A stretch of 18,621 bases of DNA, from contig MU631308.1 of assembly GCA_026770615.1 (NCBI GenBank), positions 762,938 through 781,558 of the forward strand, read 5' to 3'. Position 1 is the first letter of the stretch, and each line of letters starts with the position of its first letter. This DNA is from Pavlovales sp. CCMP2436. Lineage: Eukaryota; Haptophyta; Pavlovophyceae; Pavlovales. This document shows positions 1 to 18,580 of the stretch, piece after piece. The notes under the pieces are model-generated. The model saw nothing but the letters and a program-made list of their open reading frames with translations, ran no database searches and was not told where the DNA came from. Position numbers and translations under genes: made by a program.

Positions 1-60
1 ACCCTCATACTAATTTCAATTATAATAAATCAGGGGTTTGTGACCGCCTTCCCCGTTCAG

Positions 61-99
61 GCGGTTGGCGCACCCTTCGCACAAGCGCAACTCCTCGAG
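61..99 (+). CDS. Candidate exon (AVGAPFAQAQLLE)
   Basis: Thirteen codons in phase 0 between a pyrimidine-rich acceptor (CCTTCCCCGTTCAG, ending at 60) and the donor GAG|GTGACT at 100. A degenerate copy of its 3' part plus the donor lies 178 bp downstream, ending at 277. The exon is short and has no homologue that I recognise; the support is the splice signals and phase. Confidence 0.35.
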
Positions 100-3000
100 G
101 TGACTTTGTGTGTGTGTGTGTGTGTGTTTGTGTGTGAGGGGGGGGTACCTTATTAATTATTATCTATACTAATATATATATTAAGGGTATTATTCCAGTT
201 ATAATCACGATCGCTAGCACAATATGACACGATTTTTTTTTATTGGCACACATTTCGCACAAGCGCAGCTCCTCGAGGTGAAAAAAAAAGGGGGGGAATT
301 ATTCTCGTTCTAATCATGAGTGTATCAAAATTAATCTTTTAATCGTATATCGTCAGACCGGAGCAGCAGCTACGAGCCACGCCCCGTTCGGCGGGCAGGC
401 GTGGCCGCAGCAACCCTCCGCGCAGGTGAGGGTGGCATAGACCGCATAGATTATAAATGATGAACTTGTTACTGTGTAGAAAACTCATTTCAATACACGC
501 ACACACACACACGCACACACGCACGCACACACATAAGCCGCGCAGGGGATCTCGGTGAGGTTCGCATAGACCGCAGAGACTATCACGATTATGATTGATA
601 AGAATAAATGATGCACTCGCTGCTACTGATGACGGTTCAACAACAGCAATAATTAAGCAAACTAATAGCAGCTCCCCCCCCCTCCACAACAACAATAACT
701 AACCAAACTAATAGCAGGCCGGCTTGTCCGAGGCCCCGCCAATCACCCCCATCGAGCCACCGACAAGCACGCGCGGGAGGGGGAGGGGGCGGGGAATGGG
801 AAGGGGCGGCCAGTCAGAAGCCGCGGGCGCAGTAGGTGCGCGCACACTTTTGTACGAATTAAAATAGTGTTTGTTATTTTTATGATAGAGTGATGATTTG
901 AATTGTTTGCGCGCGTGTGCAGTCTTGCACTCTTCGAATACCCCGATGTACCAACTACTTTGTTAGAGCACCGCATAGGTGGGTGGGGAACCCCCCCCCA
1001 TCCCCTTCAATTCTACCCTCCCACGCACGCACAAACAACAAATGAAACAATTATTTGCAACTGCCTTTCTTTGGCAGTTACCCGGATTCGGCCCAGTCCG
1101 GATTCGAATTAGTCTGCCGTCAAAAGTGGTTTTACAATCGTTCTTGCCCCACAATCATAATATCTTTTTATTGCATAGGCTGGCCGAGAGTTCGGCCGTG
1201 GGGCAGCCTGTGGGGCAATTTTAGTACGGCCGTGGGGGAAGGGGGGGGGGAGAGAGAGAGACCGTGGGGCAGCAGACAACCCCCTCCCCCTCCCCCACCC
1301 CATCCCCACCCCCATCCCCCCCCTCACCCATTCACACATCACCCGCATACACTTTTTATTAGTAGTTCTTTGAACATCACCCGACTTGCAGCCCGAAGGC
1401 GCACGGGCATGAGACTGCTAACAACCGAACTATTTGAAGTAATCCTAGCAAAACAAAAAAATCACAACAACAGCGTGGAGCAAGACAAGGGGGAGTGGGC
1501 GTACAGACAGCTATCTTAAAGGTCTGATTCATATCATCATTCTGCTCAACGTCGTCATCATTAACTTTTATGTTTTATTATTTTTATATCTAGCAGCGCG
1601 GGGCAAACCAAGAGGCAGGCCGAGGGTTAGCGAACACACAGACAAAAGCACTAAAATATCGATCATAAGGAGAAGAATCAGAATATTATCCGCATCCTCA
1701 ACGTCGTCCTTTTTTCCCCTTTTTCTTTTTGAAGTCAATTAAAAGCGTGGGGCAAGCCGAGGGTCAGCGGGCAACATTACGAGTAATGTCTGCAATAATC
1801 AGAGAAATAAAATAATAGTAATATCATAATCCCCCCCCCGCATACACACACACGCGCGCACAGGCACAGCGCGGGGAAAGTCGAGAGGACGGCCGAGGGG
1901 CAGCGGACGCGGCGCGAGAGGCGGCGGCCGCATTGCCGCGCCCGTCGCACAGGCGATGGGGGTGAGCTCCATCCCCCCACCCCCCCCCCCATCCTGCATC
2001 TCTCCCGACCGTTTCTTTAGGTTCTTTTACAACATCAAATGTCATTATTATTAATCATAAATTAATAATGATAATGATGATTTCGTCGTTGTCGGTGTCC
2101 TTGATAATAATGAAAACCAGGCCTATTGGTTTTAGATACATTTATTATTGAAAAGGCGGACCTGCTGGACGACGAGCTCCACGATCTACAGGGGGTTGCG
2201 GGTAATAAGAAACAGTAAAGTTAAGAAACTGGGCCTGATCTTTTGTGCCATTCGATCGTAATTTAAGCAAAAATTAACCATTGTTTGTACATAACTACTT
2301 TGTTTGTGAAAGGCGGACCTGCTGGACGACGAGCTCCACGATCGGCTCTTTGGCGCCTCCTCAGAAGATGAGGTGAGTCTTTCTTTTCTTATTCCCCCCC
2401 AACCCCCCTCCCCGACTTGCAGCCCGAAGGCGTACGGGCTTGTCAACTTATTTCTTTCTTATTTCTATTTCTGTTACTAATAGTTACTTCATCGGCTCTT
2501 CGGCGCCCCTTTGGAATACGAGGTGCGTGTCTTTTCTCTATCATTTTTTTTTTAACCCCCCCCTTTCCTCTGCCGCCGTCGCCGCCGCCCCCACGCCCCC
2601 CCCCCCCCCCCGCCCCGCCACCAACGACTTGCAGCCCGTAGGCGTACGGACGTTTCTGATCTCTGATCTCTGATCTCGTATCTCTGATTTATTTAATTTT
2701 GACGGACAAAATTGGCTCTTCAGCTTTTTCGGCTCTTCCTAGGAGTTCTTCTTCGGAAGTCAAGATGTGTCTAATAATAACTTTCATTAGTAAAAATTAT
2801 GCTTATGTTATTGTAGAATTGTTGTTGATATTTTCTTATTATCGTTATCATCATCATCATACTCATTTTTATTATCGTTGTTATCTGATAATAATACCAC
2901 TAACAAATATCAAATTAATGGGCAACAACAATCATCATCATCATCATCGTCATCATCATCATCATCATATGCTAATACATAAATGCATGAATAATTATAA

Positions 3001-3200
3001 TTATAATTCTTATAACAACATAATAGGGCGTGGGTCAGCAGTCGCCTAGCCTCCCCTTCCCACCCAATAATAACAACGCCGCGCGCGGCGCGCCGCAGCT
3101 CGGAACGGCCTTCAGCAGAGTAGGGGCCGGCGGGCCCGCGCGTCCGCCACGCTCCACGCCACCCCCTGGGCAGGCGCCCTCAAGCAGCAGCAGCGATTGA
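61..3200 (+). CDS. Tentative multi-exon gene, Arg/Gly-rich AT-hook-like protein (5' end outside window)
   Basis: I infer a gene from short GC-rich blocks bounded by AG acceptors and GT donors in AT-rich sequence: 61-99, 357-425, 718-831, 1870-1961, 2313-2372 and 3099-3200 (TGA at 3198). The first three enter and leave in phase 0. Block 1870-1961 enters after one base of a codon and leaves in phase 0; 2313-2372 and the last block are phase 0. At least one exon between 831 and 1870 is therefore missing from the model; candidates start after AG at 1077 (peptide LPGFGPVRIRISLPSK) or at 1181. The product would be disordered: RG-rich, then an AT-hook-like RGRP core, an acidic stretch and a Ser/Pro tail. 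AT-hooks bind AT-rich DNA, so a chromatin role is possible but unproven. No ATG start is visible. The repeated junction copies could instead mean a decayed gene. Confidence 0.38.
65..281 (+). repeat. Direct repeat of exon 3' part plus donor (2 copies)
   Basis: 39-bp units at 65-103 and 243-281 differ at four positions by eye and share TCGCACAAGCGCA and CTCCTCGAGGTGA. Each ends in GAG|GTGA, so the repeat spans an exon-intron junction. Confidence 0.75.
105..133. repeat. GT microsatellite
   Basis: A (GT)n run with one TT interruption follows the candidate donor at 100, and is followed by a G-tract at 138-146. Confidence 0.9.
357..425 (+). CDS. Candidate exon, Pro/Gln/Ala-rich
   Basis: Twenty-three codons between the acceptor ATATCGTCAG (ending 356) and the donor CAG|GTGAGG at 426, phase 0 at both ends. 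The peptide begins TGAAATSHAPFGGQAW and looks like disordered protein. The donor and the first intron bases recur at 555-583. Confidence 0.38.
426..583 (+). repeat. Direct repeat of donor and intron start (2 copies)
   Basis: The units at 426-454 and 555-583 share GTGAGG and GCATAGACCGCA and continue into similar AAATGATG sequence. Each starts with a GTGAGG donor. Confidence 0.65.
497..533. repeat. CA microsatellite
   Basis: An imperfect (CA)n tract with interspersed CG steps lies between the two donor-side copies. Confidence 0.9.
641..717 (+). repeat. Tandem acceptor-side repeat (2 copies, 46-bp period)
   Basis: 31-bp units at 641-671 and 687-717 differ at three positions. Both end in AAACTAATAGCAG, the candidate acceptor before the exon at 718; a C-tract separates them. 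Confidence 0.75.
718..831 (+). CDS. Candidate exon with RG repeats
   Basis: Thirty-eight codons in phase 0. The acceptor at 716-717 follows a branch-point-like ACTAAC, and the donor is GCA|GTAGGT at 832. The peptide begins AGLSEAPPITPIEPPTS and then runs into RGRGRGRG and GRGGQSEAAGA, an RG-rich low-complexity segment of the kind found in RNA- or DNA-binding proteins. A second copy of the acceptor region lies 46 bp upstream (641-671). An alternative donor, GTGCGC, starts at 836. Confidence 0.4.
1474..1910 (+). repeat. Array of acceptor plus AT-hook exon start (4 copies)
   Basis: Units start at 1474, 1597, 1746 and 1870, each just after an AG, with CG(C/T)GG(A/G)G at the front and 123-149 bp spacing. 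In one common frame they read WSKTRGSGRT, RGKPRGRPRVSE, WGKPRVSGQ and RGKSRGRPRGSG. Flanking CTCAACGTCGTC at 1545 and 1697 shows that intron sequence was copied too. Only the last copy has a donor. Confidence 0.6.
1870..1961 (+). CDS. Candidate exon with AT-hook-like core
   Basis: The acceptor CACAG ends at 1869, after a C-tract and a CA repeat; the donor GGG|GTGAGC starts at 1962. Read after two bases that complete an upstream codon, it gives thirty codons starting RGKSRGRPRGSGRGARGGGR and ending AAPVAQAMG, in phase 0 with the next exon. RGRP is the minor-groove core of AT-hooks. Three further acceptor-plus-exon-start copies lie upstream at 1474, 1597 and 1746; that at 1597 reads RGKPRGRPRVSE in the same frame, a better AT-hook match. 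The other two reading frames also give open or nearly open peptides, so the frame choice rests on phase and on the AT-hook in two copies. Confidence 0.42.
2152..2343 (+). repeat. 35-bp perfect direct repeat, acceptor plus exon 5' half
   Basis: Positions 2152-2186 and 2309-2343 are identical (157-bp period). The copy runs from AAAG through the codons for ADLLDDELHD and stops inside the exon; after it the upstream copy diverges completely. Confidence 0.9.
2313..2372 (+). CDS. Candidate acidic exon (ADLLDDELHDRLFGASSEDE)
   Basis: Exactly twenty codons, phase 0, between AAAG ending at 2312 and a consensus donor GAG|GTGAGT at 2373. The peptide is acidic and helix-compatible. A perfect 35-bp copy of the acceptor plus the exon's 5' half lies upstream (2152-2186), and degenerate copies of its 3' half plus donor lie downstream (2493-2522 and near 2729). 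I do not recognise the family. Confidence 0.42.
2344..2775 (+). repeat. Donor-side repeat of exon 3' half (3 copies)
   Basis: CGGCTCTT(T/C)GGCGCC begins at 2344 and 2493, each running into GAG|GTGAGT or GAG|GTGCGT. A more degenerate third copy starts at 2729 and lacks a clear donor. The first two translate as RLFGASSEDE and RLFGAPLEYE, so similarity holds at the peptide level. Confidence 0.6.
2931..2969. repeat. CAT microsatellite
   Basis: (CAT)n with one CGT interruption. It would encode a His run in one frame, but the surrounding AT-rich sequence argues against coding. Confidence 0.9.
3099..3200 (+). CDS. Candidate 3'-terminal exon, Pro/Ser-rich tail
   Basis: After CGCAG at 3098 an open frame starts LGTAFSRVGAGGPARPP and ends with a Ser run and TGA at 3198-3200. 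Phase 0 fits a splice from the donor at 2373. The acceptor lacks a good pyrimidine tract, and the frame is open upstream to about 3072, so the exon start is uncertain. The composition resembles disordered C-terminal tails. Confidence 0.28.
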   Translation, partial: LGTAFSRVGAGGPARPPRSTPPPGQAPSSSSSD

Positions 3201-4289
3201 TGAACTCTCGTGAAATGACCTTAAACATTTGCAAAATTACGACATATAATGGACCAAGCCAACGTGGATTGATGGCGATCATATGCATCAATTGTGTGTC
3301 ACGTGTGATCGTGTATAGACCTGAGTTGCGGATATAAAACAAAAAATATCGTTCGAAACACGGCCAACTCATGTCAGTCAGTTTATAAATCAGTTGTGAG
3401 CCCATGAGACGGCCGGGCGACGGATCGTGGGCTCGATAAAAGGAACTCGATCCGAATAATGTCTTTATTTATTTGTTTTATTCGATCCGGGTCGACCCAT
3501 TCGGGAGCGAGCGAACATTAATCTACTTGTAATTAGATAAAATTTGTTAACTAATTAATTACACAGGGCGGGGACAACGGCTAGAGCGCCGCGAGCAACG
3601 GACCAGCATCCCGGTCCGCACCTCCTCTGAAAACGATCGACATCATATGTTTTACATTTATATCTGAACAAAATGGTCAAACTGTACTTAAAGCGAACTC
3701 ACGCACACGACGACGCGACTCCCCACAGATAATAGCAGAACAACCGCCATCAGAGCCCCACACCACCGTGTTCTGCGCTCATCCACAAGGCCCACAGCAG
3801 TGATTCAGACCCGCACACCCCAGCAGCCAGCGGAAGCGCGCCAAAAGCGCAAGAAGAGAGAGGAACAATGCCGCAAAAAAACACCCCAACATATTGAGCC
3901 CGAGGCTCACCCCCCTGAGGGGTGGGGTAGACCTGGACCACAATGAAGCCCCACCGTGTGATTCTTGCCCCTTGTGGACAAGAATTACACAGTGGGATAC
4001 ATACTATTGAAGGTTATTTGTCTGTTTATTTTGCGTTACAGGTGCGGCACGTGCGTAGGCGAGCTGCATTTTAGAACGAGCGAGAAGCAGCAGCGGCCGG
4101 TCAGCGCGTCAGTCAGAGAGTCGTCGATTGTCGTGTGTCGGATCAGCCATAGCGGTGGGGTCGTTATCCGTGTGCTCTGCAAAAATCCCTTGATCCGAGT
4201 GCTTCTCAACACTTGAGTCCGGTGGAGACTTGTCAGGGGATGGACGTATTTCTAGATACTTACACACTTAACGCGGGAAAGCAGCACAA
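3201..4289. other. Stretch with no supported gene
   Basis: A mixed AT/GC region after the putative TGA. Weak signals only: an open - strand frame at 3405-3112 that overlaps the + terminal exon; a basic + strand stretch after CCCCACAG at 3728, containing RQKRKKREEQCRKK and ending with TGA near 3942; and a good acceptor (TTTTGCGTTACAG) at 4028-4040 followed by GC-rich sequence. CGGATCG and CGATCCG form short inverted repeats near 3420-3454. None of these makes a convincing gene. Confidence 0.4.
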
Positions 4290-5735: not shown

Positions 5736-6815
5736 ATGGACGTGACCGAGCTTCGCCAAAAGGCCGACCAGGGCGACGCCGAAGCGCAGCACGTCCTCGG
5801 GTGGTACATCTAAAAAGGGCAGATCGTGCCGCAGGATTACGCCGAGGCTGCTGTCTTTCTCCGCCGCGCCGCCGACCAGGGCCACTTGGGCGCGCAGTTC
5901 AGCCTCGGGATTTGCTACCGCGAAGGTGAGGGCGTGCCTCAGGACGACCGCGAGGCTGCTCGGCTCTTCCGCCGTGCGGCCAACAAGGGGCACGCGCACG
6001 CGCAGTGCGAACTCGGGAAATGCTACGCAGAAGGTAGGGGAATGCCTCGGGACGACGACGAGGCCGCGCGCCTCTACCGCCGCGCGGCTGAGCAGGGGCA
6101 CGCGATGGGGCAACTCAATCTTGGTCGATCCTACGAACAAGGGAAGGGCGTGCCACAGGACGATCGCGAGGCAGCTCGCCTCTTTCGCCTCGCAGCAGAG
6201 CAAGGTCTCGCCGCGGCACGGTTCAAACTCGCGTTACTGTGCGGCTTGGGCAGGGGCGGATTGCCACAAGACGATCGCGAGGCTGCTCGCCTCTTGCGCC
6301 TCGCAGCCGAGCAGGGCCTCGCTGAATCCCAGCTCGGTTTCGGTGTATGCTGCAAAAAAGGCTTGGGCGTGCCGCAGGATATTGGCGAGGCTGCTCGCTA
6401 TTTCCGCCTCGCAGCCGAGCAGGGCCTCGCAGGAGCACAGCTTTGCCTGGGCGAGCTCCTCCTCGAGACGGCCGCTGCGGGAAGAGTGCTGCCTGCCGCG
6501 CCGGGAGAGGCCGCTCGATTCCTTGCGCAGGCGGCGCAGCAGACGGAAGTCGAGCAGGGCCGTCTCGATGCGCTCGCTGTGCTCAGCGAGCACGCGCACG
6601 ATCCCGACGTCGTCAAGACATGCTGCGTCGGCTGCGGCAAGACGCGGAAGCTCAGTACGTGCTCAAAATGTCTCACAGCAAAGTTCTGTGACGCCGAGTG
6701 CGTCCAGCGAATGTGGCCCGTGCTCAAGCAGAGCTGCAAGACCTTCGCCGCGGCCCGGGAGGAGGCTGCGGCGGCCGCGGACGGGCACGACGCGGCGCCA
6801 GCCGAAGCCTCGTAG
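5736..6815 (+). pseudogene. Sel1-repeat/MYND zinc-finger protein with an in-frame TAA
   Basis: The ATG at 5736 (context GCGATGG) starts MDVTELRQKADQGDAEAQ and leads into six to seven Sel1-like units of about 36 residues carrying VPQDDREAARL and RRAAEQGH. A MYND-like finger follows at residues ~297-334 and an Ala-rich tail ends at TAG 6813. Sel1 repeats are TPR-like scaffolds; MYND fingers bind proline-rich partners. Codon 26 is TAA (5811), although repeat length and frame continue normally across it, so this is a point nonsense rather than an intron. The finger keeps seven Cys, but the position expected to be His (WP-x-H-K) is Leu (CTC, 6723-6725). Both changes suggest a pseudogene. Alternatives are an assembly error or readthrough; no good ATG follows until the fourth repeat. 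Confidence 0.85.
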
Positions 6816-6849: not shown

Positions 6850-7149
6850 TGTTGGAGGTATGGCTCTTGTATATGCTCTACTATTGCATATACTCAAGCT
6901 ATACTGCCTACATGCCTGTCCGCAGCACACAGCACCGCACACACTTACTGGCCACAACTCTGGCTCAGTTTAAATTGTGATTGCCACTCAGTGCTCGCTC
7001 ATTTTTGCCGTCCGCCACTGATCGCGTTGCGCTGATCGCTCGTGAAGATCTAACTCGCTGTATTTGATCCTGCCGCCCGTCGAGCCGACGGGCACCCTCT
7101 AGCGCTGCAAGGACTAGAGGAGAGACGGAGCGACCGGCTAACATCAACA
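6850..7149 (+). repeat. 5' LTR
   Basis: 300 bp, starting TGTTGGAGGT and ending CATCAACA. A TATA-like GTATATGC lies at 6869 within an 8-bp inverted repeat (arms 6869-6876 and 6886-6893). A second hairpin (GCCCGTCG/CGACGGGC, 7075-7093) lies near the 3' end. Both hairpins recur in the 3' LTR. The LTR should carry promoter and RNA-processing signals; I could not set U3/R/U5 borders. Confidence 0.93.
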
Positions 7150-9755
7150 TGCATGCATCGGGGGGCTCCCCCCGTGCCGGTCACGCAGCTCCGACACGGA
7201 GCAACGACAGCAAGGACAACTCGCGCATCCGCCTCTCGGACATCAACAAGCCGTCGGTCTTCCAGGGGATGATGCGCGAGTTCCAGGTGCTCACGGACAA
7301 GGACGCGACGCTCGCGCAGGGCTTTGTCGGCAACGAGCTCGACAAGGACGGCATCGCGACGGGCCGCTTGAAGCTGCTCACTCAGGATGAGTACGCAACC
7401 GCGCTCATATCTCCCCACGACGACAAGCTGGCCAAGTTCCACCAGATGGAGGACCAGATCTCGGCGATCAACAAGGTCGCAGCTGACAAGATAAGCAAGA
7501 TCAACTTGCAGGCGACGTACGACAAGTCCAAGATCACCACTGAACACGAGGAGGCATTGGCAGCCCAGCTCTTCGCGCACGCGACGAGCGTCGCGCTGGA
7601 GGCTTCCATGGCGGTGAAGCCGGTGCGGGCACGCTCGCTGTCACCGCCTCTGACGCGCGCTACGTCGCAGACCACGCCCGCGCTGCGCAGCCCAGCCGCA
7701 TCGCCCGCCGCGGTGGCTACCGTCGTCAAGCCGCTGATCTACACCGGCAAGGCGAGCGTGGTGAGCTATCTCGAGCTCAACCTGACGTTCATCGAGAGCA
7801 ACCACCTCGCCGAGATTGACCAGGTCTACTCCACTGCCGAGGCCAAGGTGGCAGAGGTCAAGGCAAAGTCGCAGTACGGCATCTACAACTCGTTCCTCGA
7901 GGTGCGGGAGGCCTACTACAAGAAGACTGAGGTCGATTTCATGGGTCACCTGCACGGCCGGCTGACGACCGAGGCCATGGCAGCGCTCAAGCAGTCGGCG
8001 CGCGCCGAGTCCAACTCCATCTCGCCCTCCGGCTGCTTCAGGCTGATCTGGGTGCAGTGGAAGAGCAAGGCGCAGCAGGCAGACCTCGGCCACGCCGCCA
8101 AGCTCTGGAGCGCGGTCCGCCTCAACTCGACGCTCTTTGGGTGCACGCTCTCGCTCGAGGAAGGCATCGCAGCGATGGAAGTGGCACGCATCGACGCGGG
8201 CGCCATCCCCATGACGCCGGCAGCGGAGAAGCTGTACATGCTGCTCGAGGCCGTGGTGCCGACCCTCGAGAACAGCGTGATCATCGCACGCTTCAAGGAG
8301 CTCAAGGTGGCAGCCATCACGGAGAAGTCGTACGAATATTTCGTGTTGGCACTCGGTCTGCTCGACAACGTCAAGCTCGGGGTAAGCGACGCGCCTGCGC
8401 CGCGCCAGCGCGAGCTCTCTCGCGCGCCGCGCGAGGCTGCGTCCATATTCGCGCGCGTCGTAGACGCTGAGCGCGTCCGCACCGAGTGGCTCAAGAGCAA
8501 GACCTGCTTCAGTTGCGGCGTGCTCAGCCACCTCAGGCAGGACTGCCCGCACCGCTACAAGGAGACGGCGCCGGCTGCAACGCGCCTGCCGTCGCCGCCA
8601 CAGCGTGCCAAGGGGCAGCCCAAGTCTGCGCTCCGCATCGGAGGCCCGGCGCGCGCCAAGGACGCCAACGCGCGCGGCTTCACGACGTCGTTCGCCATCC
8701 TCTCCGGCCTGGACTCGGCGGAGGAGGACTCGGACGATGAGACCGACCAGTCCAAGACCACCGACCCCGTCGAGTTGCCCGGAGCGCGGGGTGATGAGAC
8801 CGACCAGTCCGAGTCCACTGACTCCGACTACGAGCAGCTTGTGGTGAAAGCCGCCGCGAGCTCGACCGCCAAGGAGGTCTCTTTCTTCGTCGACACCAAG
8901 CAGGCCAAGCCGGAGTGGTACGGCGGCTACGGTGGCAACGGGCGCGGCTTCGGCCGCGGACGCGGCGGCGGCAGGGGCGGGCGCGGCGGGCTCGGCGTGG
9001 CAGGGCGGGAGGAGCTGGCTAAGCTGCGCGCCGCCCTCGCCCAGGCTGAGCAGCGCACCGTCCTCGCTGACGTCGAGCAGAAGGAGTATGCGCACGCGCG
9101 CTCTGCGCTGCCCTCTCGCGCTACGCCGAACAGCCGCATCGTCCGCCGCGGCGAGTTCGGCTCCCCCGGCCTCAACGTTCTCGGCACCACGTTCGAGCGC
9201 GTCAAGATGTGCGTAGACTCGGGCGCCGACGAGCACGTGTTCCCGGACAAGATGATCAGCAGCGAGGTGACGCCATGCGAGATAAATGGCGCTGACTCAA
9301 GCCACATCGTGTCGTTCGCCGCGGTCACCGGCATCGTCGCGATCTCCGCCATCAACGGCAAGCCCGGTGGGAAGCCGATCGAGTTGCCTGGAGCGTGGGG
9401 CACTGGCGAAGTGACGACTCCGCTCATCAGCGTGCCGCGCCTTATCAAGGCAGGTGCGGTCGTGCACTACGAGAAGGGCACCTCCTACATCGACCTCTCG
9501 GCCATCGGTGGCGGTCGTATCACCATCGACAAGAACTTGATGATCTTCGGCAACGTCGAGGGCATCAAGAAGGACACCGGCGCCGGTGCGACTGTCGGCT
9601 CGCGCGGGCGCGCGCACACGGCATCGGCTGTCGGCATGACGACTGCCCACGCGTTGCCGCCCAAGGTGCACTGCCGCGCGACCACCCGCCGCGGCGCTGC
9701 CTCCAACCTGCGCCGCCAGGCGCAGCGCCCCTCAGCCAATGGCCAGGGAAAGTAA
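7149..9755 (+). CDS. gag: Gag-protease polyprotein
   Basis: 868 residues, intact. The ATG overlaps the last base of the 5' LTR, leaving no leader for a separate primer-binding site; a later start at the MetMet near residue 41 is possible. The capsid-like region is at about residues 190-415. A CCHC zinc knuckle is at 453-466 (C453, C456, H461, C466), and a Gly/Arg-rich RNA-binding stretch at about 591-617. The aspartic protease signature DSGA is at 690-693. Gag packages the element RNA and the protease matures the polyprotein in virus-like particles. The frame ends at TAA 9753, which sits inside a donor-like GTAAGT, and then reopens in the same frame into integrase. That stop may be a mutation, a regulated gag-pol boundary or part of an intron. 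Confidence 0.9.
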   Translation: MHASGGSPRAGHAAPTRSNDSKDNSRIRLSDINKPSVFQGMMREFQVLTDKDATLAQGFVGNELDKDGIATGRLKLLTQDEYATALISPHDDKLAKFHQMEDQISAINKVAADKISKINLQATYDKSKITTEHEEALAAQLFAHATSVALEASMAVKPVRARSLSPPLTRATSQTTPALRSPAASPAAVATVVKPLIYTGKASVVSYLELNLTFIESNHLAEIDQVYSTAEAKVAEVKAKSQYGIYNSFLEVREAYYKKTEVDFMGHLHGRLTTEAMAALKQSARAESNSISPSGCFRLIWVQWKSKAQQADLGHAAKLWSAVRLNSTLFGCTLSLEEGIAAMEVARIDAGAIPMTPAAEKLYMLLEAVVPTLENSVIIARFKELKVAAITEKSYEYFVLALGLLDNVKLGVSDAPAPRQRELSRAPREAASIFARVVDAERVRTEWLKSKTCFSCGVLSHLRQDCPHRYKETAPAATRLPSPPQRAKGQPKSALRIGGPARAKDANARGFTTSFAILSGLDSAEEDSDDETDQSKTTDPVELPGARGDETDQSESTDSDYEQLVVKAAASSTAKEVSFFVDTKQAKPEWYGGYGGNGRGFGRGRGGGRGGRGGLGVAGREELAKLRAALAQAEQRTVLADVEQKEYAHARSALPSRATPNSRIVRRGEFGSPGLNVLGTTFERVKMCVDSGADEHVFPDKMISSEVTPCEINGADSSHIVSFAAVTGIVAISAINGKPGGKPIELPGAWGTGEVTTPLISVPRLIKAGAVVHYEKGTSYIDLSAIGGGRITIDKNLMIFGNVEGIKKDTGAGATVGSRGRAHTASAVGMTTAHALPPKVHCRATTRRGAASNLRRQAQRPSANGQGK

Positions 9756-9854
9756 GTGGTCCGGGGGGGACCGGCGTTGCTGGTCGCGGGGGTGTGCGCT
9801 CCTCCGTGGACTGGCTGCGTCTGTGGTCCCTCCGATCGGGCACAGTCGACAAGA

Positions 9855-10419
9855 CACTACTCGCACGTGGCAGTCGACGACATGGAGGGCCAAGCTCCGA
9901 TGTCGTCGGACCTCAACACGCTGTCCGACGCGCGCATGCGGCGGCTCACGCACGAGCTGCCACTTCCAGACGCCAAGGCTGCCGGCGAGATCACTTATCT
10001 CGACGTGTACTCGGCGTCCAAGTTCGACCTCCCCGTCAAGAACATCGACGGTGAGCGGCCGGGATTCAAGTATGCCATCCTGTTTGTGGACGCTTTCTCG
10101 CGCTTCCGGAGGGTCTACTTCGCCAAGTCGCAACGCGAGCTTCCAGGACTCGCGCGACACTACCTCTCCGAGCTCGGCGCGTCGGCACACGCCGGCGGTC
10201 TCTTCATGCTCGGCGATGGGTTCCGTCGGTATGTACATACAGATGGAGATACCTCGATGAACTCCGAGGCCTTTGAAAAGGTGCTCCTCGAGTTCGGGCT
10301 TGCGGCAAACGTCACGTCGTGCCCGCACACTCCAGCCAGCAATGGCGTGGCCGAGCGCAGCTTTGGGACGCTCGAGCCAGACGTGCGCGCGAGGCTGGCA
10401 ATGTCTGGTTTGAGCTACC
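9855..10419 (+). pseudogene. pol: Integrase catalytic core (pol fragment 1)
   Basis: Same frame as gag. It carries ITYLDVYSASKF (Asp at 10002), YVHTDGDTSMNS (Asp at 10242) and NGVAERSFGTL (Glu at 10353), with 36 residues between the second Asp and the Glu, as in D,D(35)E-type retroelement integrases. This domain inserts the cDNA into the genome. The stretch between the TAA at 9753 and about 9855 is not clearly coding in any frame, and a typical zinc-binding pre-integrase segment is not recognisable. Near 10420 the homology leaves this frame, so an indel has occurred. Confidence 0.88.
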
Positions 10420-11476
10420 GCCATTGCATTTCGTCACGCCGTGGCGGCGCGCAACCGCCTCGCGTCGCAGCGCGTCGTCGACTCGACGACCGGCGCTGTG
10501 CGCTACGTGTCACCCTTCGAGCTCTTCTTTGGCCGCCGGCCGAGCTGCAAGCACTCCGTGATCTTCGGAGCGCCGTGCCGAGTCCTCTTACTCGGGCAGA
10601 GGCGCAAGCCGAAGGGCAAGTTCGCCATGCAGTCGGCGCGCGGCAAGGTGCTCGGCCGTGGCGAGGACGGAATCCAGATCGACAAGACCTACCGCTACAT
10701 GCTAGGGTGGATTGTGCTGTTGGACGACGGACGGCTAGCATTCTCTCGGCATGTTCAGGTCGATGAGAGACAGCTCCTCGAGGGGGGGCACACGCCGTTC
10801 GACTCCAAGCACATGCCGTTCGACCCCAAGATCGACCCGTCGGAGCCCCTCTCCTATGGCTTCTCTGGGTCGGGTGGCGAGTCCGGCGCCGAGCCCGTGT
10901 CGGCCATCCTGAGGCCAGCTGGCGCCATACCGCTTGCTCTTCAGTATAACTCGCAGCGGCGTGATCGAATGTCGCGGAGCCGCAGTCCCGCCGCCGTCGC
11001 CGCCCGCAGTCCCGCCGCCGTCGCCGTCCGCAGTCCCGCCGCCGCCGTTGTCGCACGCAGGCCCGCCGCCGCCAGTCCAGCTGCCGCCGCCGCCGCCGCC
11101 GTCGCGCACGCACGACCGGCCAACACGTCGTTCCTCGACGGGCGGTCAGTTATCATCCCCAATAACTACCGACAGGCGCAATGCTCGGAGCAGGCCTTTG
11201 ACTGGCAGCGCGCCATGGAGGAGCACCTCAAGATGCACGACAACATGGGTACATTCCAAGTGGTCGTCGTGCCGGTCAAGACGAGGCTGCTCCCCTGTCG
11301 CTGGGTCTACTCGCTCAAGACGAGTAACGAGAACGAGGTGACGCGCTTCAAGGCTCGTACCGTGGTATGGGGCAACATGCAACGCCCCGAGATCGACTTA
11401 AAAGAGACGTTCTCGCCCACCGTTCGTGCCGAGCAGATCCGCCTGATGATCGCTGTCGGCGCCAGAGTTCACGGTG
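10414..11476 (+). pseudogene. pol: Integrase C-terminal region and RT N-terminus (pol fragment 2)
   Basis: The frame is shifted relative to the integrase core. It begins AFRHAVAARNRLAS, continues through the copia-typical YVSPFELFFGRRP and FGAPCRVLLLG, then a Pro/Ala/Arg-rich linker (10975-11110) built on CCGCCGTCGCCG-like repeats. It enters the RT with FDWQRAMEEHLKMHDNMGTF, CRWVYSLK, RFKARTVVWG and ETFSPTVRAEQIRLM. Homology is lost after about 11470, where the next frame takes over. RT copies the element RNA into DNA. Confidence 0.88.
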
Positions 11477-11477
11477 A

Positions 11478-12290
11478 GCGCTTGCGCAAGTGCGCGGACC
11501 TCTGGTCGCCGTGCTGTCGATCAGCGACGTGCTCTCCGTTGGAGACGTTAAGGACGCCTATCTTAACTCGCGGCTCGAGGAGGACAACGTGCTGACGGAG
11601 CTGCCGCCGGGCTTCGAGTCCGAGCTCTCCGTGCCCGACGGGTTCAAGGTCGCAGCTCGGCAAGTTCGGGCTCACCCCGGCCTCCGTCAGTCGGGACGAG
11701 CCTGGTTCAGAAACAATCGAGCGCGGCTACTCGAGCGCGGGTTCATCCAGTCCGAGGTCGCGCCGTGCATCTTCTTCAAGGACACGGTGTGTGGGGGCTT
11801 CATCACCGTCGGCGTCTTCGTCGATGACATGCTCGCCCTGAACGCGTCTGCCAACTCGCTGGCGTTCAAGGAGCTCGCCGACTCGCTCAAGGAGCACTAC
11901 GTGATCACACATCAAGACCTGGACAAGTTCTTGGGCGTACAGTTCGAGATCGGCAAGACGGGCATTAGGATGTACCTGACGCAGTATATTACCGGCATCC
12001 TCGCTCGCTTCGAGATGTCGGAGTGCCGGGTCAAGCGCAACCCGGAGTCGTCGCGCGACGACCCCATCACGGCTCCGGACGAGACGATGCTCAACCGCAA
12101 GGACATCTTGCTCTACCAGGAGATGACGGGCACGCTCCTGTTCTGCGTGACGATGTGCCGGTCTGACCTCGCTCACTCCGTCGGCATGTTGGCGCGGCGA
12201 GTGAGTAAGCCGCGGGTGCGCGATCACGTCGCGGCGTGTCGTGTCTTCCGCTACCTCCAGGGCACCAAGGACCTCGGCATTTTGCATTTT
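11478..12290 (+). pseudogene. pol: Reverse transcriptase catalytic region (pol fragment 3)
   Basis: Back in the gag frame. It contains VGDVKDAYLN (the first catalytic Asp block), GLRQSGRAWF, and FVDDM at 11817-11831 (the copia version of the YXDD active site), then LGVQFEI, QYITGILARFEM and HVAACRVFRYLQGTKDLGIL, typical of the RT-RNase H connection. Around 11650-11690 the usual copia motif is weak in this frame and better in a neighbouring one, so a pair of compensating indels is possible. The frame is lost near 12290, within a T-rich run. Confidence 0.88.
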
Positions 12291-12828
12291 GTTCAAGTAC
12301 AAGGAGGACTCCAAGCACCCCGGCCTCGTGGCGTATGCCGACTCCGACTGGGGCGTAGACACGGAGGGGCGAAGGTCGACAAGCGGCTACGTCGTGATGT
12401 TCAACGGCGCGCCGGTGTCGTGGCAGAGCAGCATGCAGTCGATCGTCGCGCTTTCCACTTGCGAGGCCGAGCACATCGCTGCCTCGGACGCGGCGCGCGA
12501 GGTCTACTACATGCGCGAGGTCGCCTCGTTCATCCGCAACCCGCAGCCCGGCCCGACGGTCATGTACGAGGACAACCAAGGCGCGGACCAGCTGGTCGAG
12601 AACCCGATGCATCACAAGCGCACGAAGCACATCGATGTAAAGTACCATTACATCCGCGCAGCGCAGGAGAACGGCGTGATCAAGGTCGAGAAGATTCACA
12701 CGGACCGCAACCACGCCGACATCATGACTAAGGCGGCGACCACGGTAACGTTCCACCGGCACGTCGACGCCCTCATGCAGCCGATGGTGCAGTTGGCGGT
12801 GCAGCCGATGGTGCAGTCGGCGGTGTAG
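12286..12828 (+). pseudogene. pol: RNase H domain and repeat tail (pol fragment 4)
   Basis: Same frame as fragment 2. It reads VAYADSDWGVDTEGRRSTSG, then ALSTCEAEHIAASDAAREV, VMYEDNQGA and RTKHIDVKYHYIR, the catalytic and conserved blocks of copia RNase H, which degrades the RNA strand during cDNA synthesis. The domain ends near 12775 and the frame runs into 8-residue QPMVQSAV-type repeats until TAG at 12826. Without that TAG and a second stop at 12922, the same frame would stay open into the 3' LTR, to TGA at 13207. Confidence 0.88.
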
Positions 12829-12969
12829 CCGATGGTGCAGTCGGCGGAGCAGCCGACGGTGCAGTCGGCGGAGCAGCCGGCAGTGCAGTCGGCGGGGCAG
12901 CCGACGGTGCAGTCGGCGGAGTAACCGGCAGTGCAGTCGGCGGAGCAGCCGGCGGCGCAGCCGGCGGGT
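12778..12969 (+). repeat. 24-bp minisatellite, 8 copies
   Basis: Eight head-to-tail units of 24 bp with consensus CAGCCG(A/G)(T/C)(G/A)GTGCAGTCGGCGG(A/T)G. Units 3 and 7 start with TAG and TAA where the others have CAG. Its frame encodes an octapeptide repeat with two Gln per unit. Confidence 0.92.
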
Positions 12970-14056: not shown

Positions 14057-14589
14057 ATGTTTGGGAAGCTTCCAGACACCTTCGTCGATGATATTTTATC
14101 TGATATCCATCTTGCGCCAGCACCGCCCGCCTTCGGGGCGAAACAGGCGGCTCAGCCCTGGGTAGAGGCAGCTAGAGCCGCCCTCCAGGGCAATACTTTG
14201 CTGGTAATAGGCCGCGGCTGTATTATAAATGATTCAAATTACCGACAGCCTTTATATTTAAATATTACCAATGACTGGTTATTAGTTCCTAATATGTCTA
14301 CGAATAGGGATTTACTTTATATAATGCCCACATCCTGCCGAAAGCGCCACTGCCGTATACTTAAAATACAGAAATAATTAATTAAGAATACCAAGGTTCC
14401 GACTTCTTATCGGGCTTCTGCGTTGACCTCAAGCTTGCTGACGACCCCAAGTTCGCGTCCGTGTGTCCGGAGGTGTCGAGCAACGCCGACTGCGACGGCG
14501 AACGCCATATCAGTAGAATTGGCGTATCAGTAGAGCCTCCGGCTGCAGGGCGCGGTGGCAGTGCTCGCGGTGTACATGTGGTGGTATGA
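14057..14589 (+). CDS. Hypothetical two-exon gene
   Basis: The first exon would be 14057-14203: ATG, 49 codons starting MFGKLPDTFVDDILSDIHLA, donor CTG|GTAATA, phase 0. The second would start at 14434 after a pyrimidine-rich stretch ending TCAAG, also phase 0: LADDPKFASVCPEVSSNADC, then DGERHISRIG and a Gly/Ala/Val tail to TGA 14587. The translations look protein-like, with two Cys in exon 2, but I recognise no family. Exon 2 is open upstream to about 14395, so its start is uncertain. Its end overlaps the - strand gene's last codons by 63 bp; an earlier donor (GTAGAA near 14510) would avoid this. The unspliced first frame is open to 14377, so a single-exon gene is the alternative. Confidence 0.32.
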
Positions 14590-16449
14590 CCCTACATCAC
14601 CCCACTCGCCGTGGTACAAACCGCGCGAAAGGTGCGGCTGCGTAGCATCCGCCGCGGTCGCGTGTGCGAGCGGCCGGCAGTGCACGAGCTGAGGGTCAAA
14701 TGCGTGCTGGCGACGCGCGTCGAGCGCCTCGTGCGCCGCGTGTGCTGCATGCAATGCGCGCGCCGTGTGCGCAGTGTGCGCCACGTGCACGTCAGCAACC
14801 TCCCCGCGCAGGCCGCCGAGCGACCCGCCAAGCGCGACGGCGAGTGCGTCGCTGATCGCGCGCACGGACGCGCTTGTCGAGCGGGAAAAGGGACTCGGGC
14901 CCAGGTGCGCAAGCGCGTTGGGATTCGGGTAGTGGCTGAGGCCGTGGAAGCCGCCAGAGCTGAACCCCGTGTCCGCCCCAGTGTCCACGGCGACGTTCTC
15001 GGCGGCACCAAAGGCAGGCTGGCGGGTAGGCGGGCGGCTGTGGGTGCCGTTGGCGGCAGCAGCTCGCAAGGACACGGCATCGGCCAGGGCGTCGGCGGGT
15101 CGCGAGTCAGCCGCACGCAGAGCCGGCCGCGCGCGCGCCGGCGGGCTCAGCTCGAGCGTGGATAGATCAAAAGGCGCGCGGCCGCCGCCGCCGAGCCTGC
15201 CGCCGACGAACCTGCGGCCGAGCCCGCCGACGCGCGCGGCGGGCGGTGATGCTGGCTCAGCCTGTGCTGGGGCCAGGCCACCCATGGAAAAGTACCCACG
15301 TGGCGACGCTGGCCGGTGGGGAAGGGGCTCGACGGGGGCAAGTCGGTGCCCCCAGCGAGCCCCTGCTCCCGCTTGGGGTTCGTCAGGGGCGAGTGAAGGC
15401 CTCCAGCGTGTCCCTGCTCCTACTGTGCGCGCACGGGGCGTGCGCAGGATCGCGGTAGTGCGCAGCTGCGGGCTACTGGCCGATGGCGAGGCAGCCTGCG
15501 CCGCCGCCTCCGTCCCCACCCCAACAGTGCTCGAGGAGAAGGCATCCTCCGCCTTCGCCCCCGCAGCAGCCGACGAGAAGGCAGCCGTCGCCGCCGCCCC
15601 CACCCGCTCAGTCGCGGAGTGTCGAAGGCGTCGTGGCGCGAGCGCGGCCCTTACTGGCATCGGTCGGTGCCGGACCTTCCCGGACTCCCCCGGAGCGGTC
15701 CGCCGCTCCCACCGCCCGAAGGCGAGACGCACTGCGCCCCACAGTGCCTCCTCGTCGGTCACAGTGGGGGCGGCGGCGGCTATCCTTTCCGCGGCTGATG
15801 TGGGGGCGGTGGCCGCTGCGTCTACTGCTGCAGCCGCTATGGCTGTTGCGGCTGTGGCTGCTGATGTGGTGGCTGTGGGGGAGGCCCACGTCACCGCCGG
15901 GGCCAAGCGCGAAGGAGGAGGCGCGCAGCCGGCACTGGGCAGCGCAGCCGCCGCAGCAGCCGCACTCGCCGCAGTCACCGCACCTGCCGCCTCTGCCACA
16001 GCCACCACCGCCGCAGCCTTCGCCGCAGCCTGCGCGCGCACCGCCGCTACCGCCGCTCTCGCCACCGCCCCGTCCGCCGCTTGTGCAACAGCGGCAGCGG
16101 CCTCCGTGACCGCAGCGGCCGCAGCTTCTGCAGCCGACACCATCGCCGCCTGCGCCGCAGCTGCCGCCGTCTGCGCCGCAGCTGTAGCAGCCTCTATCCT
16201 CACCCTTGCTGCCTCTGCCTGCGAAGCCGCTACCTCCGTGGCCGCAGCCGCCTCTGTCTTAGCCCTCTTCGCCGCCGCAGCCGGATCCACCGCAGCCACC
16301 TTCGCCACTGCAACCTGAGCAGCCACCGCCTCCACAGCCCCGAGCCTCGAGCGAAGTGCAGTCCGCCTCTCGGAACAGCGGCGCGCGAGGCGGCAAAAGG
16401 TGAAGTAGAGCAACAGGCGCGACTCGAGCTCGCTTGTGCGCCTCGCGCC
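14527..16449 (-). CDS. Exon 5 of the model, Ala-rich and disordered C-terminal region
   Basis: 1923 nt, 640 residues and TGA. The acceptor is strong: a C18 tract, a CA repeat and CTCACTCACAG ending at 16450. It begins GARRTSELESRLLLYFTFCR, then an Ala-rich coiled stretch, one more Trp-containing segment (AVRLAFGRWERR), Pro/Ser/Gly-rich disorder and a His/Ala-rich part (HTAHTARALHAAHAAHEA). The + strand is also open over much of this GC-rich stretch, but there it reads only Ala/Pro runs, whereas the - strand tail from about 15200 to 14550 is compositionally varied. The acceptor and phase favour the - strand. Further introns cannot be excluded. Confidence 0.55.
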   Translation of the reverse strand, partial: GARRTSELESRLLLYFTFCRLARRCSERRTALRSRLGAVEAVAAQVAVAKVAAVDPAAAAKRAKTEAAAATEVAASQAEAARVRIEAATAAAQTAAAAAQAAMVSAAEAAAAAVTEAAAAVAQAADGAVARAAVAAVRAQAAAKAAAVVAVAEAAGAVTAASAAAAAAALPSAGCAPPPSRLAPAVTWASPTATTSAATAATAIAAAAVDAAATAPTSAAERIAAAAPTVTDEEALWGAVRLAFGRWERRTAPGESGKVRHRPMPVRAALAPRRLRHSATERVGAAATAAFSSAAAGAKAEDAFSSSTVGVGTEAAAQAASPSASSPQLRTTAILRTPRARTVGAGTRWRPSLAPDEPQAGAGARWGHRLAPVEPLPHRPASPRGYFSMGGLAPAQAEPASPPAARVGGLGRRFVGGRLGGGGRAPFDLSTLELSPPARARPALRAADSRPADALADAVSLRAAAANGTHSRPPTRQPAFGAAENVAVDTGADTGFSSGGFHGLSHYPNPNALAHLGPSPFSRSTSASVRAISDALAVALGGSLGGLRGEVADVHVAHTAHTARALHAAHAAHEALDARRQHAFDPQLVHCRPLAHATAADATQPHLSRGLYHGEWGDVGSYHHMYTASTATAPCSRRLY

Positions 16450-18348
16450 CTGTGAGTGAGTGTGTGTGGGGGGGGGGGGGGGGGGTCAGAAGGAAGAGAG
16501 GCAGCTGCGGCTCGAGAGTTCGCTTTGCGCCCTGTAAGTGTGTGTGTGTGTGTGTGTGGGTGGGGGGGGGGGGGTATTCAGCTCGGTGTTTAACGGACAA
16601 AAGGAAACAGGTAGTGAGCACAGAAAGTGAGCGAAGACAGGGAACAGCAGACAGTGAACAACAGACTATGAACATCAGACACTGAACAACAGACAGTGAG
16701 CGCAGACAGTGAGCACAAATACGGAGCAGCACTCACCCGCAGCACAGCTGACCACGCGCGCATCGGTGCGCGCAGCCGGATGCGACGCCCGCCCCGGATG
16801 CCAGCAGCGGCAAGCCCAGCTCGGGTTGGTCTGCGCGATACTGTGGCGGTCCACGCGCGTAGCGCCGGGCGCAGCTGCAGTGAGCGAGCGGCGCGCTTCG
16901 CCTTGGCGGCTGCTGCTGCGGATGCTGCTGCGGCGGGGCCTGCGTCCACCCCCCACCGCCGCAGCGATGAGCGCAGGCGCAACAGCCGGGCGGCCCCCTT
17001 GGCAGTTGCTAGCAGCTCCGCTCGGCCCGCCGCGCGCGCTGCCGCGGCGGACCAGCGGCGCAGCGCAAGCCTGTTTGTATTATTGGTATCAATGGTATAC
17101 GTATTAGCTTCGGTATTCATGTTAGTCCCCCGACAAAACGACCATTATTTTAAAAGTCACCTTCTGCGCAGGCCCCTTCCCGTAACCGTAACCGTCACCC
17201 CGACAATTTCTCTCTCCACCGCCAGCTCCCGCGCAAACGCCCAGAGTCGCAGAACATTCCTATGATTACAAAAGCAACAATAATGACGAAAATAATAATA
17301 ATAATAGCAACAGAAGTAGCTTTTTACGAATTATTGTAATAATAGAAAAAAACGAGAATGAGAATGAGAACAATGAAACAATGAAAATAACGACAAAAAT
17401 AAATCACCTGCTTGCGAGCCTCCGCACCGCAGCACGACCGACCGCGCCTACTGCGCCTGCGACAATATGATATTATTAACAAAATTAACAATACTGGTAT
17501 TAGGTATAAACATAAAATATTCATCTTAAAATAATACGGCCGACCGCGCCTACTGCGCCAGCGACAATATTTCATTATTAACAAACATAATATTAAGGTT
17601 AGAGATAATAATAATGCATTTTCTTTGCATAATACGGCCGACCGTATCCACTGCGCCTACGACAGTAAAATTATAAGAATAATGGCATTACTAGTATAAG
17701 ATTATTTTTCAAGAGTAATAATAGATTATTTTTCAAACATACGAATTGGAACACGAATCATAACATTAAGAATATGGATACGAATATAGCCTCTTAGCCC
17801 AGCGTGCGCGCGTAAATTTTCATAACAAAAAAAATCATAAGAATAACATGGTTATTAATAGTCATCATCATTATTATTTCACCTCTCAGCCCAGCGCGCG
17901 CATGCACTTTTACAAAAACAACAATAATGACAATACTATTATGGTTATTAATAGTCATCATCATCATTATATCACCTCTCAGCCCAGCGCGCGCGCATGC
18001 GACGGCGAGTAAGACAATTATAATGATCATGGTAAACAGAATACTGATACGAATACATATTAAGGAAAACATCGAATACTGATACTAATACGTATACTAC
18101 TTATACGCATACTACCTCTCAGTCCTGCGCGTACGCACGAGGCAGTAGTAGTATTATTACTATTTTAACTATTATGTCGTATAAGATTGGCACGTAAAGC
18201 ATAGCAACAGCAACCATAATAATATTACTCTTATTAATAATCGTCATCATTGTTATTAATCATGATGCTCACCTCTCAGCCCTGCGCGTGCGCATGCGGC
18301 GGCGAGAGCGGCGAAGGCGCGCGATTCGCCGAGCAGGGCGCACGCAGC
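14527..18348 (-). CDS. Five-exon gene with Sfi1-like Trp repeats and Ala-rich tail (5' end not found)
   Basis: Exons on the - strand: 18348-18273, 17456-17408, 17259-17161, 17070-16737 and 16449-14527, with phases 0/1, 1/2, 2/2, 2/0 and 0/stop (TGA 14529-14527). All introns are GT...AG. The two central exons encode a helical, Ala/Arg-rich repeat with Trp codons at 17243, 17054, 16955, 16853 and 16754, spaced 33, 33, 34 and 33 residues. The first interval crosses a splice junction, which supports the model. The core L-x3-[LM]-x2-W (LRSSLRRW, LRPALRAW, LRAPMRAW) resembles the Sfi1 repeat that binds centrin on long helices at basal bodies or spindle poles; a cytoskeletal role is inference. The last exon adds 640 residues, Ala-rich then disordered. 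No start codon is identified, and more exons probably lie beyond the window. Confidence 0.55.
16450..16736 (-). other. Intron 4 with duplicated C-tract/acceptor block
   Basis: The intron carries two acceptor-side units, each a poly-C run (16574-16562 and 16485-16468 on the + strand as G runs), a CA repeat, an acceptor ACTCACAG or ACTTACAG, and a similar exon start (GARRTSELE versus GAKRTLEP). The upstream unit's AG is at 16533-16532, 82 bp before the used one. Either acceptor preserves phase 0. Confidence 0.6.
16613..16718. repeat. Short tandem repeat inside intron 4
   Basis: Degenerate 14-18 bp units built on ACAGTGA(A/G)C, with variants such as ACACTGAAC and ACTATGAAC, adjoin the donor of exon 4. 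Confidence 0.8.
16737..17070 (-). CDS. Exon 4 of the model, four Trp repeats
   Basis: 334 nt: one base plus 111 codons, starting LALRRWSAAAARAAG and ending MRAWSAVLR. The donor CGG|GTGAGT (16736-16731) is consensus; the acceptor ACAAACAG ends at 17071. Without splicing, the frame would extend to an ATG at 17120, but those residues are Asn/Thr low complexity from AT-rich DNA. Confidence 0.58.
17161..17259 (-). CDS. Exon 3 of the model, first Trp repeat
   Basis: 99 nt. The acceptor AATCATAG ends at 17260; the donor AGAAG|GTGACT starts at 17160. It reads NVLRLWAFARELAVEREIVG and ends GRGLRR plus AG. Its last two bases and the first base of exon 4 make AGG (Arg), keeping the 33-residue Trp spacing. 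Confidence 0.52.
17408..17456 (-). CDS. Exon 2 of the model
   Basis: 49 nt: two bases, fifteen codons (AVGAVGRAAVRRLAS), two bases. The acceptor TTGTCGCAG ends at 17457; the donor AGCAG|GTGATT starts at 17407. The pyrimidine tract is weak, and an alternative acceptor six bases downstream is possible. Upstream copies of its acceptor side are at 17541 and 17639. Confidence 0.4.
17439..17690 (-). repeat. Acceptor-side tandem repeat of exon 2 (3 copies, ~100-bp period)
   Basis: On the + strand, CGACCGCGCCTACTGCGCC recurs at 17439 and 17541, with a diverged copy at 17639; each is followed by (G/A)CGACA and AT-rich intron sequence. On the - strand each is the acceptor plus the first half of exon 2; only the 17439 copy continues into a complete exon with a donor. 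Confidence 0.8.
17789..18300 (-). repeat. Donor-side tandem repeat of exon 1 (5 copies)
   Basis: On the + strand, ACCTCTCAGCCC(A/T)GCGCG units start at 17881, 17974 and 18271, with diverged units at 17789 and 18114. Spacing is 92-157 bp, and the shared AT-rich TGGTTATTAATAGTCATC shows that intron sequence was copied too. On the - strand each is the exon's 3' end (ARAGLRG) followed by GTGAGC, GTAGTA, GTGATA or GTGAAA. Confidence 0.8.
18273..18348 (-). CDS. Exon 1 of the model (internal exon)
   Basis: 76 nt. The acceptor CTTTCTTGCCACCAG ends at 18349; the donor GAGAG|GTGAGC starts at 18272. It reads AACALLGESRAFAALAAACA then RAGLR plus one base, matching the next exon's phase. Another frame is also open (Arg-rich), so the frame is moderately supported. 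Partial copies flank it on both sides. Confidence 0.5.
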
Positions 18349-18580
18349 CTGGTGGCAAGAAAGGAATGGGGGGGGGGCATGGGCAGGGAGGGATTTAGAT
18401 TTGTGTGAGAGGGGGGGGGGTTAAGAATATGAAGGGGGGGGGGGGGGGGGATTCGCCGAGCAGGGCGCACGCAGCCTGGGCATGGGCAGAGAGGGAAGTG
18501 GAGATGCGTACGGGTGGGTGGGGGAGGGCAGGAATCTAAAAAAAGGGGAGGGTGGTTCACCAAGCAGGGCGCACACAGCA
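18324..18580 (-). repeat. Acceptor-side repeat of exon 1 (3 copies)
   Basis: ATTCGCCGAGCAGGGCGCAC on the + strand recurs at 18324 and 18451, with a diverged copy near 18555; GGCATGGGCAG(G/A)GAGG follows. On the - strand these are acceptor plus exon start: CCAG in the first two, CCAT (acceptor lost) in the third. Long G runs lie between them. Confidence 0.82.

Follow-up and report, generated by a model that had tools for sequence, protein, structure and literature searches.

Mirage-like arrays of exon-intron junction copies in the haptophyte Pavlovales sp. CCMP2436

Introns that contain copies of their own boundaries have been described in lancelets. The repeat units of such "mirages" span an exon-intron boundary and include part of the exon, with unit lengths of 150–160, 157 and 10–72 bp (PMC3087553). 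Both boundaries are affected, AG or GT is found in many, not all, of the repeats, splicing is regular by RT-PCR, and the number of units varies between haplotypes (PMC3087553). The gene PGBD5 carries imperfect mirages (PMC3902484). Related events have been described in other lineages. For example, potato RdRp gained an intron by tandem duplication across the 3' intron-exon boundary (PMC4974935), and in the Rogers model, as described in the same paper, exon segments containing AGGT are duplicated. In duplicated human genes, variable internal tandem repeats at exon-intron boundaries are associated with novel introns and alternative transcripts (PMC2812944). The first-pass annotation of the locus described here reported an intron built from copies of its own splice junctions and knew of no counterpart; there is one, as lancelet mirages are of the same kind (PMC3087553, PMC3902484). 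Among the open-access titles and beginnings of abstracts that were listed, no report of such junction copies in algae was recognized, and the portion of the Pavlovales sp. CCMP2436 genome paper that was examined contains no word beginning "intron" (PMC9756366).

The window analyzed here, meaning the whole stretch of DNA, is 18,621 nucleotides long, and the gene of interest lies on the − strand at its right end. Exons 1–4 join into a single open frame; across exons 1–3 one frame is open and the other two have stops. Exon 1 (18273..18348, 76 nt, AACALLGESRAFAALAAACARAGLR) and exon 2 (17408..17456, 49 nt) are inferred coding exons with no counterpart in the deposited model P0241. Exon 3 (16737..17070, 334 nt) is part of the deposited model T492DRAFT_151968, and the start of exon 4 opens a long frame of the same gene (14527..16449). 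All three introns are GT-AG: intron 1 (17457..18272, 816 nt), intron 2 (17071..17407, 337 nt), inside which the start of the deposited model falls, and intron 3 (16450..16736, 287 nt), whose splice is the same as in P0241. In a protein search with 7998 scored candidates, the spliced window protein has one match, T492DRAFT_151968 of the Arctic alga Pavlovales sp. CCMP2436, at 99% identity over 79% of the 190 query residues. P0241 agrees with the inferred gene at exons 3 and 4, omits exons 1 and 2, and starts at a methionine in AT-rich DNA (17071–17123, − strand) that is read here as intron 2. The deposited gene may have been truncated in annotation. The right flank of the window reads N, and the 5' start of the gene presumably lies beyond the readable DNA. 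The gene models in all loci are our own.

The first-pass annotation had placed four donor-side and two acceptor-side copies in intron 1, on the − strand, and alignment recovers all six positions. Donor copy 1 (18115..18143) consists of 28 nt of the end of exon 1 followed by GT, with 18115 as the first intron-like base. Donor copy 2 (17975..18009) has 34 nt of the exon 1 end before its GT (17975) and matches the real exon 1 donor junction at 92% over 38 nt. Donor copy 3 (17882..17907), with ~25 nt of the exon 1 end and then GT (17882), matches donor copy 2 at 87% over 78 nt, and donor copy 4 (17790..17811) has ~21 nt and GC in place of GT (17790). On the other side, acceptor copy 1 (17634..17656) is TAG followed by 23 nt of the exon 2 start (first exon-like base 17656), and acceptor copy 2 (17536..17558) has the same 23 nt of exon 2 with TG in place of AG (first exon-like base 17558). 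The real donor lies at 18272 and the start of exon 2 at 17456; between them, going 5' to 3', every donor-type copy precedes the first acceptor-type copy. In local alignment, the two junction probes score 28 and 29 within this intron, whereas their best scores in 200 length-matched stretches from other genes' introns are 10 and 11; in a longer test of 1000 draws, both probes reach p = 0.001, the floor of that test. The description of the units as junction-spanning tandem duplications that carry part of an exon stands, the exon parts being unequal in the four donor copies (28, 34, 25 and 21 nt) and ending after 23 nt in both acceptor copies. The idea of simple outward growth does not fare as well: similarity to the real donor junction is not greatest in the copy next to it. 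The closest pair of units is formed by the second and third donor copies (+297 and +390; 61/69), and the real donor junction resembles the second copy (54/68) more than the first (50/67).

Further copies lie elsewhere in the window. Upstream of exon 1, on the − strand, there are two copies of the acceptor and first 26 nt of that exon, one with AG kept (18450..18475) and one with AG replaced (18554..18579). Intron 3 contains an acceptor copy of exon 4 (16494..16531, − strand) that follows ACAG (p = 0.001), and junction probes find no significant copy in intron 2, where the sole weak donor-copy candidate is at +247 with a score of 13. On the + strand, look-alike repeats occur in the region 1–3100. 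There, an acceptor-type copy at 2152–2186 of the putative exon start at 2309–2343 is identical over 35/35 nt (together 2152..2343), and a donor-type copy at 2491–2539, which corresponds to the 3' portion of that putative exon, is 76% identical over 49 nt (together 2341..2539).

The window also holds several other features. The motif CCGACTTGCAGCCC occurs at 1381 and 2412 (+), with a near-copy at 2625, and also in the kinesin locus C412 (~2892); a repeat family with this splice-site-like motif exists in the genome. A dispersed repeat at 4175–4275 is found also in L021, L049, L009, L034, L027/L041/L042 and L035, with ~36–93 matched bases at 73–93% identity. In C412 intron 3, a match to this repeat ends ~8 nt before the exon 4 acceptor, and the repeat may supply the splice acceptor there. 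Another repeat, at 1055–1160, is shared with the C467 locus (L040 714–802; 85% over 89 bp). On the + strand, positions ~7100–12830 hold a retrotransposon with RVT_2 in two overlapping frames, which we take to be of the copia type, and positions 5814–6812 encode a protein with Sel1 repeats and a sub-threshold match to a MYND finger. Rfam gives no match within the window at the gathering threshold.

How common are junction copies in other genes of this genome? Nine further loci were modeled from protein-family matches and tested together with the window (10 loci, 29 introns, 58 junctions): kinesins (C165, C115, C412, C281, C414 and C200), TCP-1-alpha (C455) and myosins (C177 and C287). Each junction probe comprised 30 nt of exon and 10 nt of intron, and 1000 draws set the p floor at 0.001. 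When probes were tested against their own introns, 17/58 junctions reached p ≤ 0.001, and 14/58 also scored at least 15. These 14 strong junctions are divided equally between donors and acceptors (seven each), such that both boundary types are affected, and they fall in 12/29 introns. The same architecture is found in kinesin, TCP-1-alpha and myosin genes. This is, on a small scale (14 of the 58 junctions in 29 introns), the survey of other introns that the first-pass annotation proposed, and it shows the same kind of copies in them.

The score cut of 15 and a length cut of 349 bp were fixed after the results had been seen, and the score cut was meant to remove three doubtful hits: a donor hit in C165 intron 2 that is a mis-hit on the next exon's acceptor copy, a donor hit in C115 intron 2 whose score equals that of the reversed control, and an acceptor hit in C455 intron 6 that scores just 10. 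C455, C177 and C287 were picked blind, whereas repeats in C165, C115, C412 and C200 had been seen before testing; in the loci chosen by family coordinates before the sequence was inspected, a strong copy is present in 3/10 introns (C455 introns 5 and 6, and C287). In a wrong-intron control, the donor probe of an exon was placed in the preceding intron or its acceptor probe in the following intron, and none reached p ≤ 0.01 (0/30 and 0/15, 0/45 in total, with C177 and C287 outside the controls). Self-comparison of the modeled genes found 12 repeat pairs, six of them across a junction, where 2.5 would be expected for one member under random placement. The models of C165, C115, C412 and TCP-1-alpha splice into continuous, recognizable proteins.

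Strong copies go together with intron length. They are present in 9/11 introns of at least 349 bp and in 3/18 shorter ones, and intron length is greater where a strong copy is present (Mann-Whitney p = 0.0004). Two introns of at least 349 bp lack a strong copy, in C177 (361 bp) and C281 (410 bp), so other routes to intron length exist; the C177 intron holds a dispersed repeat. Some sequences lay outside these counts. C108, C467, C126, C696, L047 and the window + strand 1–3100 offered no complete intron with both exons, and C467 shows the junction-copy pattern by eye. Likewise, the 58 tests did not include the copies of window exon 1 that lie upstream of it or the last-exon donor probes of C165, C115 and C455, as the exon on the far side was unavailable; the last C455 donor probe scores 12, with p = 0.001, in the next 200 nt. 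A separate observation concerns C115 (L037/L039): its 88-bp intron 1 opens with GTACGGGCA, and the next exon starts with a similar sequence, GTACGGACA. An intron gained by local duplication could show such a resemblance.

TCP-1-alpha indicates which junctions end up in the product. Copies of parts of exon 6 of this gene (81 nt) flank it on both sides: intron 5 contains the 5' end of the exon twice, as acceptor-type copies, and intron 6 contains its last 45 nt once, as a donor-type copy. The spliced gene is identical at 358/360 residues to a public protein, P0121 (564 residues), aligns without gaps over 359 residues to a solved TCP-1-alpha, and is 88% identical to its counterpart in the pavlophyte Diacronema lutheri. 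The eight TCP-1-alpha introns total 1567 nt, and the P0121 coding sequence is 1692 nt; together these exceed the longest source contig of P0121 (2138 bases), meaning that P0121 derives from spliced RNA or from an intron-less copy. Given the match at 358/360 residues, the outermost TCP-1-alpha junctions are used: judged by this protein comparison, they are the ones in the product. In three kinesins, homology points to the same use of outermost junctions. The proposal that one functional junction, the outermost, is kept is therefore in line with the protein evidence from TCP-1-alpha and with homology in the kinesins. Two details of P0121 are worth recording. First, its two mismatches are the first two residues of modeled exon 7 (L048, reverse-complement position ~2230), where the gene has NI and both P0121 and Diacronema have YF; an allele, an assembly error and another acceptor are candidate explanations. 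Second, beyond KILQ the C-terminal part of P0121 no longer follows the Diacronema protein, and this part may be a translated retained intron.

The arrays also hold information on how they formed. Units are spaced 44–157 bp apart, plus one spacing of 225, and the spacers between copies are homologous in 9/18 comparisons at p ≤ 0.01, so in at least those nine whole units were duplicated, not just exon pieces. The other 9/18 spacer comparisons show no homology at p ≤ 0.01 and are read here as decay, a reading short of proof. Two arrays have a shared exon breakpoint: both copies of window exon 2 include 23 nt, and the C200 copies begin at the same first exon base. These shared breakpoints fit one founding duplication followed by amplification of the unit, and they count against the suggestion of repeated independent seeding; the four donor copies of window exon 1, by contrast, are unequal in extent. 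Similarly, the claim that donor-side and acceptor-side copies keep to their own sides is strictly true of window intron 1 but does not hold generally. In C165 intron 3 the two types are interleaved, with an acceptor-type copy (2411), itself weak, on the 5' side of one of donor type (2458).

Aligned copies differ from their exon by ~12% per site overall. GT or AG is retained in 20/26 hand-listed copies, and 0.77 is expected from the 88% per-site identity of the exon parts; retention at the neutral expectation gives no sign of selection to keep or lose the copied sites. Outside the 26 are spurious acceptor alignments (window intron 1 at −552 and C412 intron 1 at −144), weak donor candidates in window intron 2, C412 intron 3 and C165 intron 1, and a third acceptor copy in C165 intron 3. 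One result fits poorly with copies that decay freely after tandem duplication. Exon-versus-copy differences fall at codon position 3 in 38/56 cases, a count that includes the inferred reading frames of the window exons, and in 30/43 cases without the window, in genes whose frames are fixed by homology. The 38/56 share compares with ~0.5 expected for a constrained exon and a freely decaying copy (p = 0.005), and with 0.55 by our own estimate if GC-rich positions mutate faster (p = 0.035). The excess may reflect exchange between diverged haplotypes, past coding use of the copies, or a small sample.

How do these arrays compare with the described systems? As in lancelet mirages, the units span a boundary and include part of an exon, both boundaries are affected, and AG or GT is mostly kept. 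The spacing found here falls in a range similar to that of the lancelet unit lengths, and head-to-tail units with the intronic part copied were found in the nine comparisons with homologous spacers. By their structure in one assembly, with the last of these features present in half of the comparisons, the arrays are therefore best filed, provisionally, as mirages. They differ in belonging to a haptophyte alga rather than a chordate, in affecting a single intron, and likewise a single exon, on both sides, and in occurring in 12 of the 29 introns examined, mostly long ones, whereas in lancelets a few genes are concerned. What is new, then, is the lineage, the involvement of both sides of one intron, and the apparently high frequency. 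The potato RdRp duplication also crosses the 3' boundary, but it produced a new intron and exon, whereas the copies here lie inside one enlarged intron. The Rogers model likewise involves tandem duplication at splice-site sequence. Intron gain of that type was rejected for these arrays: the copies contain intron sequence and sit inside an intron, no new intron is formed, and the intron is not wholly exon-derived. The human boundary repeats alter gene structure, as the copies here do, but in this alga the exons appear unchanged.

We consider it very likely that tandem duplication across junctions, tolerated as the outermost junction keeps the mRNA intact, lengthens introns in this genome. This reading starts from direct observations: the copies themselves, their specificity for their own introns, their recurrence in further genes, the greater length of the introns that carry them, and the use of the outermost junctions in TCP-1-alpha. 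Under the proposed mechanism, a unit would start inside an exon and end inside the adjoining intron, or the reverse. The founding duplication would break once within the exon and once within the intron. Neither the outermost junction nor the exon itself would be disturbed, and duplication of half an exon would thus be nearly neutral. A duplication that took in the complete exon and both splice sites would, by contrast, alter the mRNA and be removed. The unit would then be amplified by slippage or unequal exchange, much like a minisatellite, and the copies would decay in place, so that worn junction copies would accumulate at both ends of the intron and lengthen it. The copies would need no function, and the inner splice sites would probably be ignored or used at a low level. 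Here we infer that the change is neutral, by which route the units multiply (slippage or unequal exchange) and in what order the steps took place.

Several alternatives deserve weighing. The one that survives best, though it is on balance unlikely, is unequal exchange between diverged haplotypes, in which case the copies would have differed from the exon at synonymous sites from the start. The third-position differences are what this would produce, in the homology-fixed genes as well as with the window included, and the phrase "haploid gene models" in the published assembly table suggests a diploid strain (PMC9756366). However, some copies look too divergent for alleles (6/15 third positions in TCP-1-alpha), GC-rich third positions may simply mutate faster, the sample is small, and the window frames are inferred. 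A broader form of the preferred reading would make junction duplication the main genome-wide lengthener of introns in this organism, with copies taken from diverged, still-coding versions of the exon or once translated. Such an origin would explain why differences are mostly at third positions; the combined claim is doubtful.

A functional role for the inner copies, in nested or recursive intron removal or as regulated alternative splice sites, is highly improbable. The 20/26 copies with GT or AG intact could be cited for such a role, as could the third-position excess and a C412 copy that reads GTAAGT where the real donor is GTGCGG, the copy presumably being closer to a canonical donor. Yet the retention of GT and AG equals the neutral expectation, the TCP-1-alpha protein has the outermost junctions, and donor and acceptor copies are unequal in number (four and two in window intron 1).

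An origin by insertion, at exon borders, of a dispersed family with splice sites of its own (introner, satellite or transposon) is extremely unlikely. Introners are dispersed families of intronic repeats associated with splice sites, and the genome does contain a dispersed element with an acceptor-like motif, as CCGACTTGCAGCCC occurs 438 times compared with once for the reversed control. The units described here are instead local and gene-specific: the copies carry exon sequence of their own gene, and junction probes score low in the introns of other genes. In a search that skips very common words and in which one candidate was scored, the window intron matches only itself and one 30-base copy upstream in its own gene. 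One element at many unrelated loci, as an introner would be, was not encountered, either among the 45 wrong-intron comparisons or in the window-intron search, which is limited and returned local matches only. Chance, low-complexity matches or assembly error has a negligible likelihood: introns do contain simple repeats, and three low-scoring hits were doubtful, but the random-draw and wrong-intron controls speak against chance, and copies at ~12% per site from their exon are not identical, as misassembled ones would be. For the strong copies, the controls and the window-intron search reject chance, low complexity, and a dispersed satellite or introner.

What are the implications of these arrays? 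The finding is real and worth following up: the kind was already known, the frequency is unusual, and the lineage is distant from lancelets. First, intron growth and the origins of new introns have so far mostly been inferred from rare cases. Here, many introns of one genome preserve a record of their growth, and the exon that supplied the copies lies next to them; the births of units, their decay and any use of the copied splice sites become countable. Second, a structure previously known from a few genes of lancelets would now extend to a distant eukaryotic branch, which would suggest a general route. Third, the spliceosomes of Pavlovales sp. CCMP2436 must ignore many near-perfect decoys, making this alga a natural test of splice-site choice.
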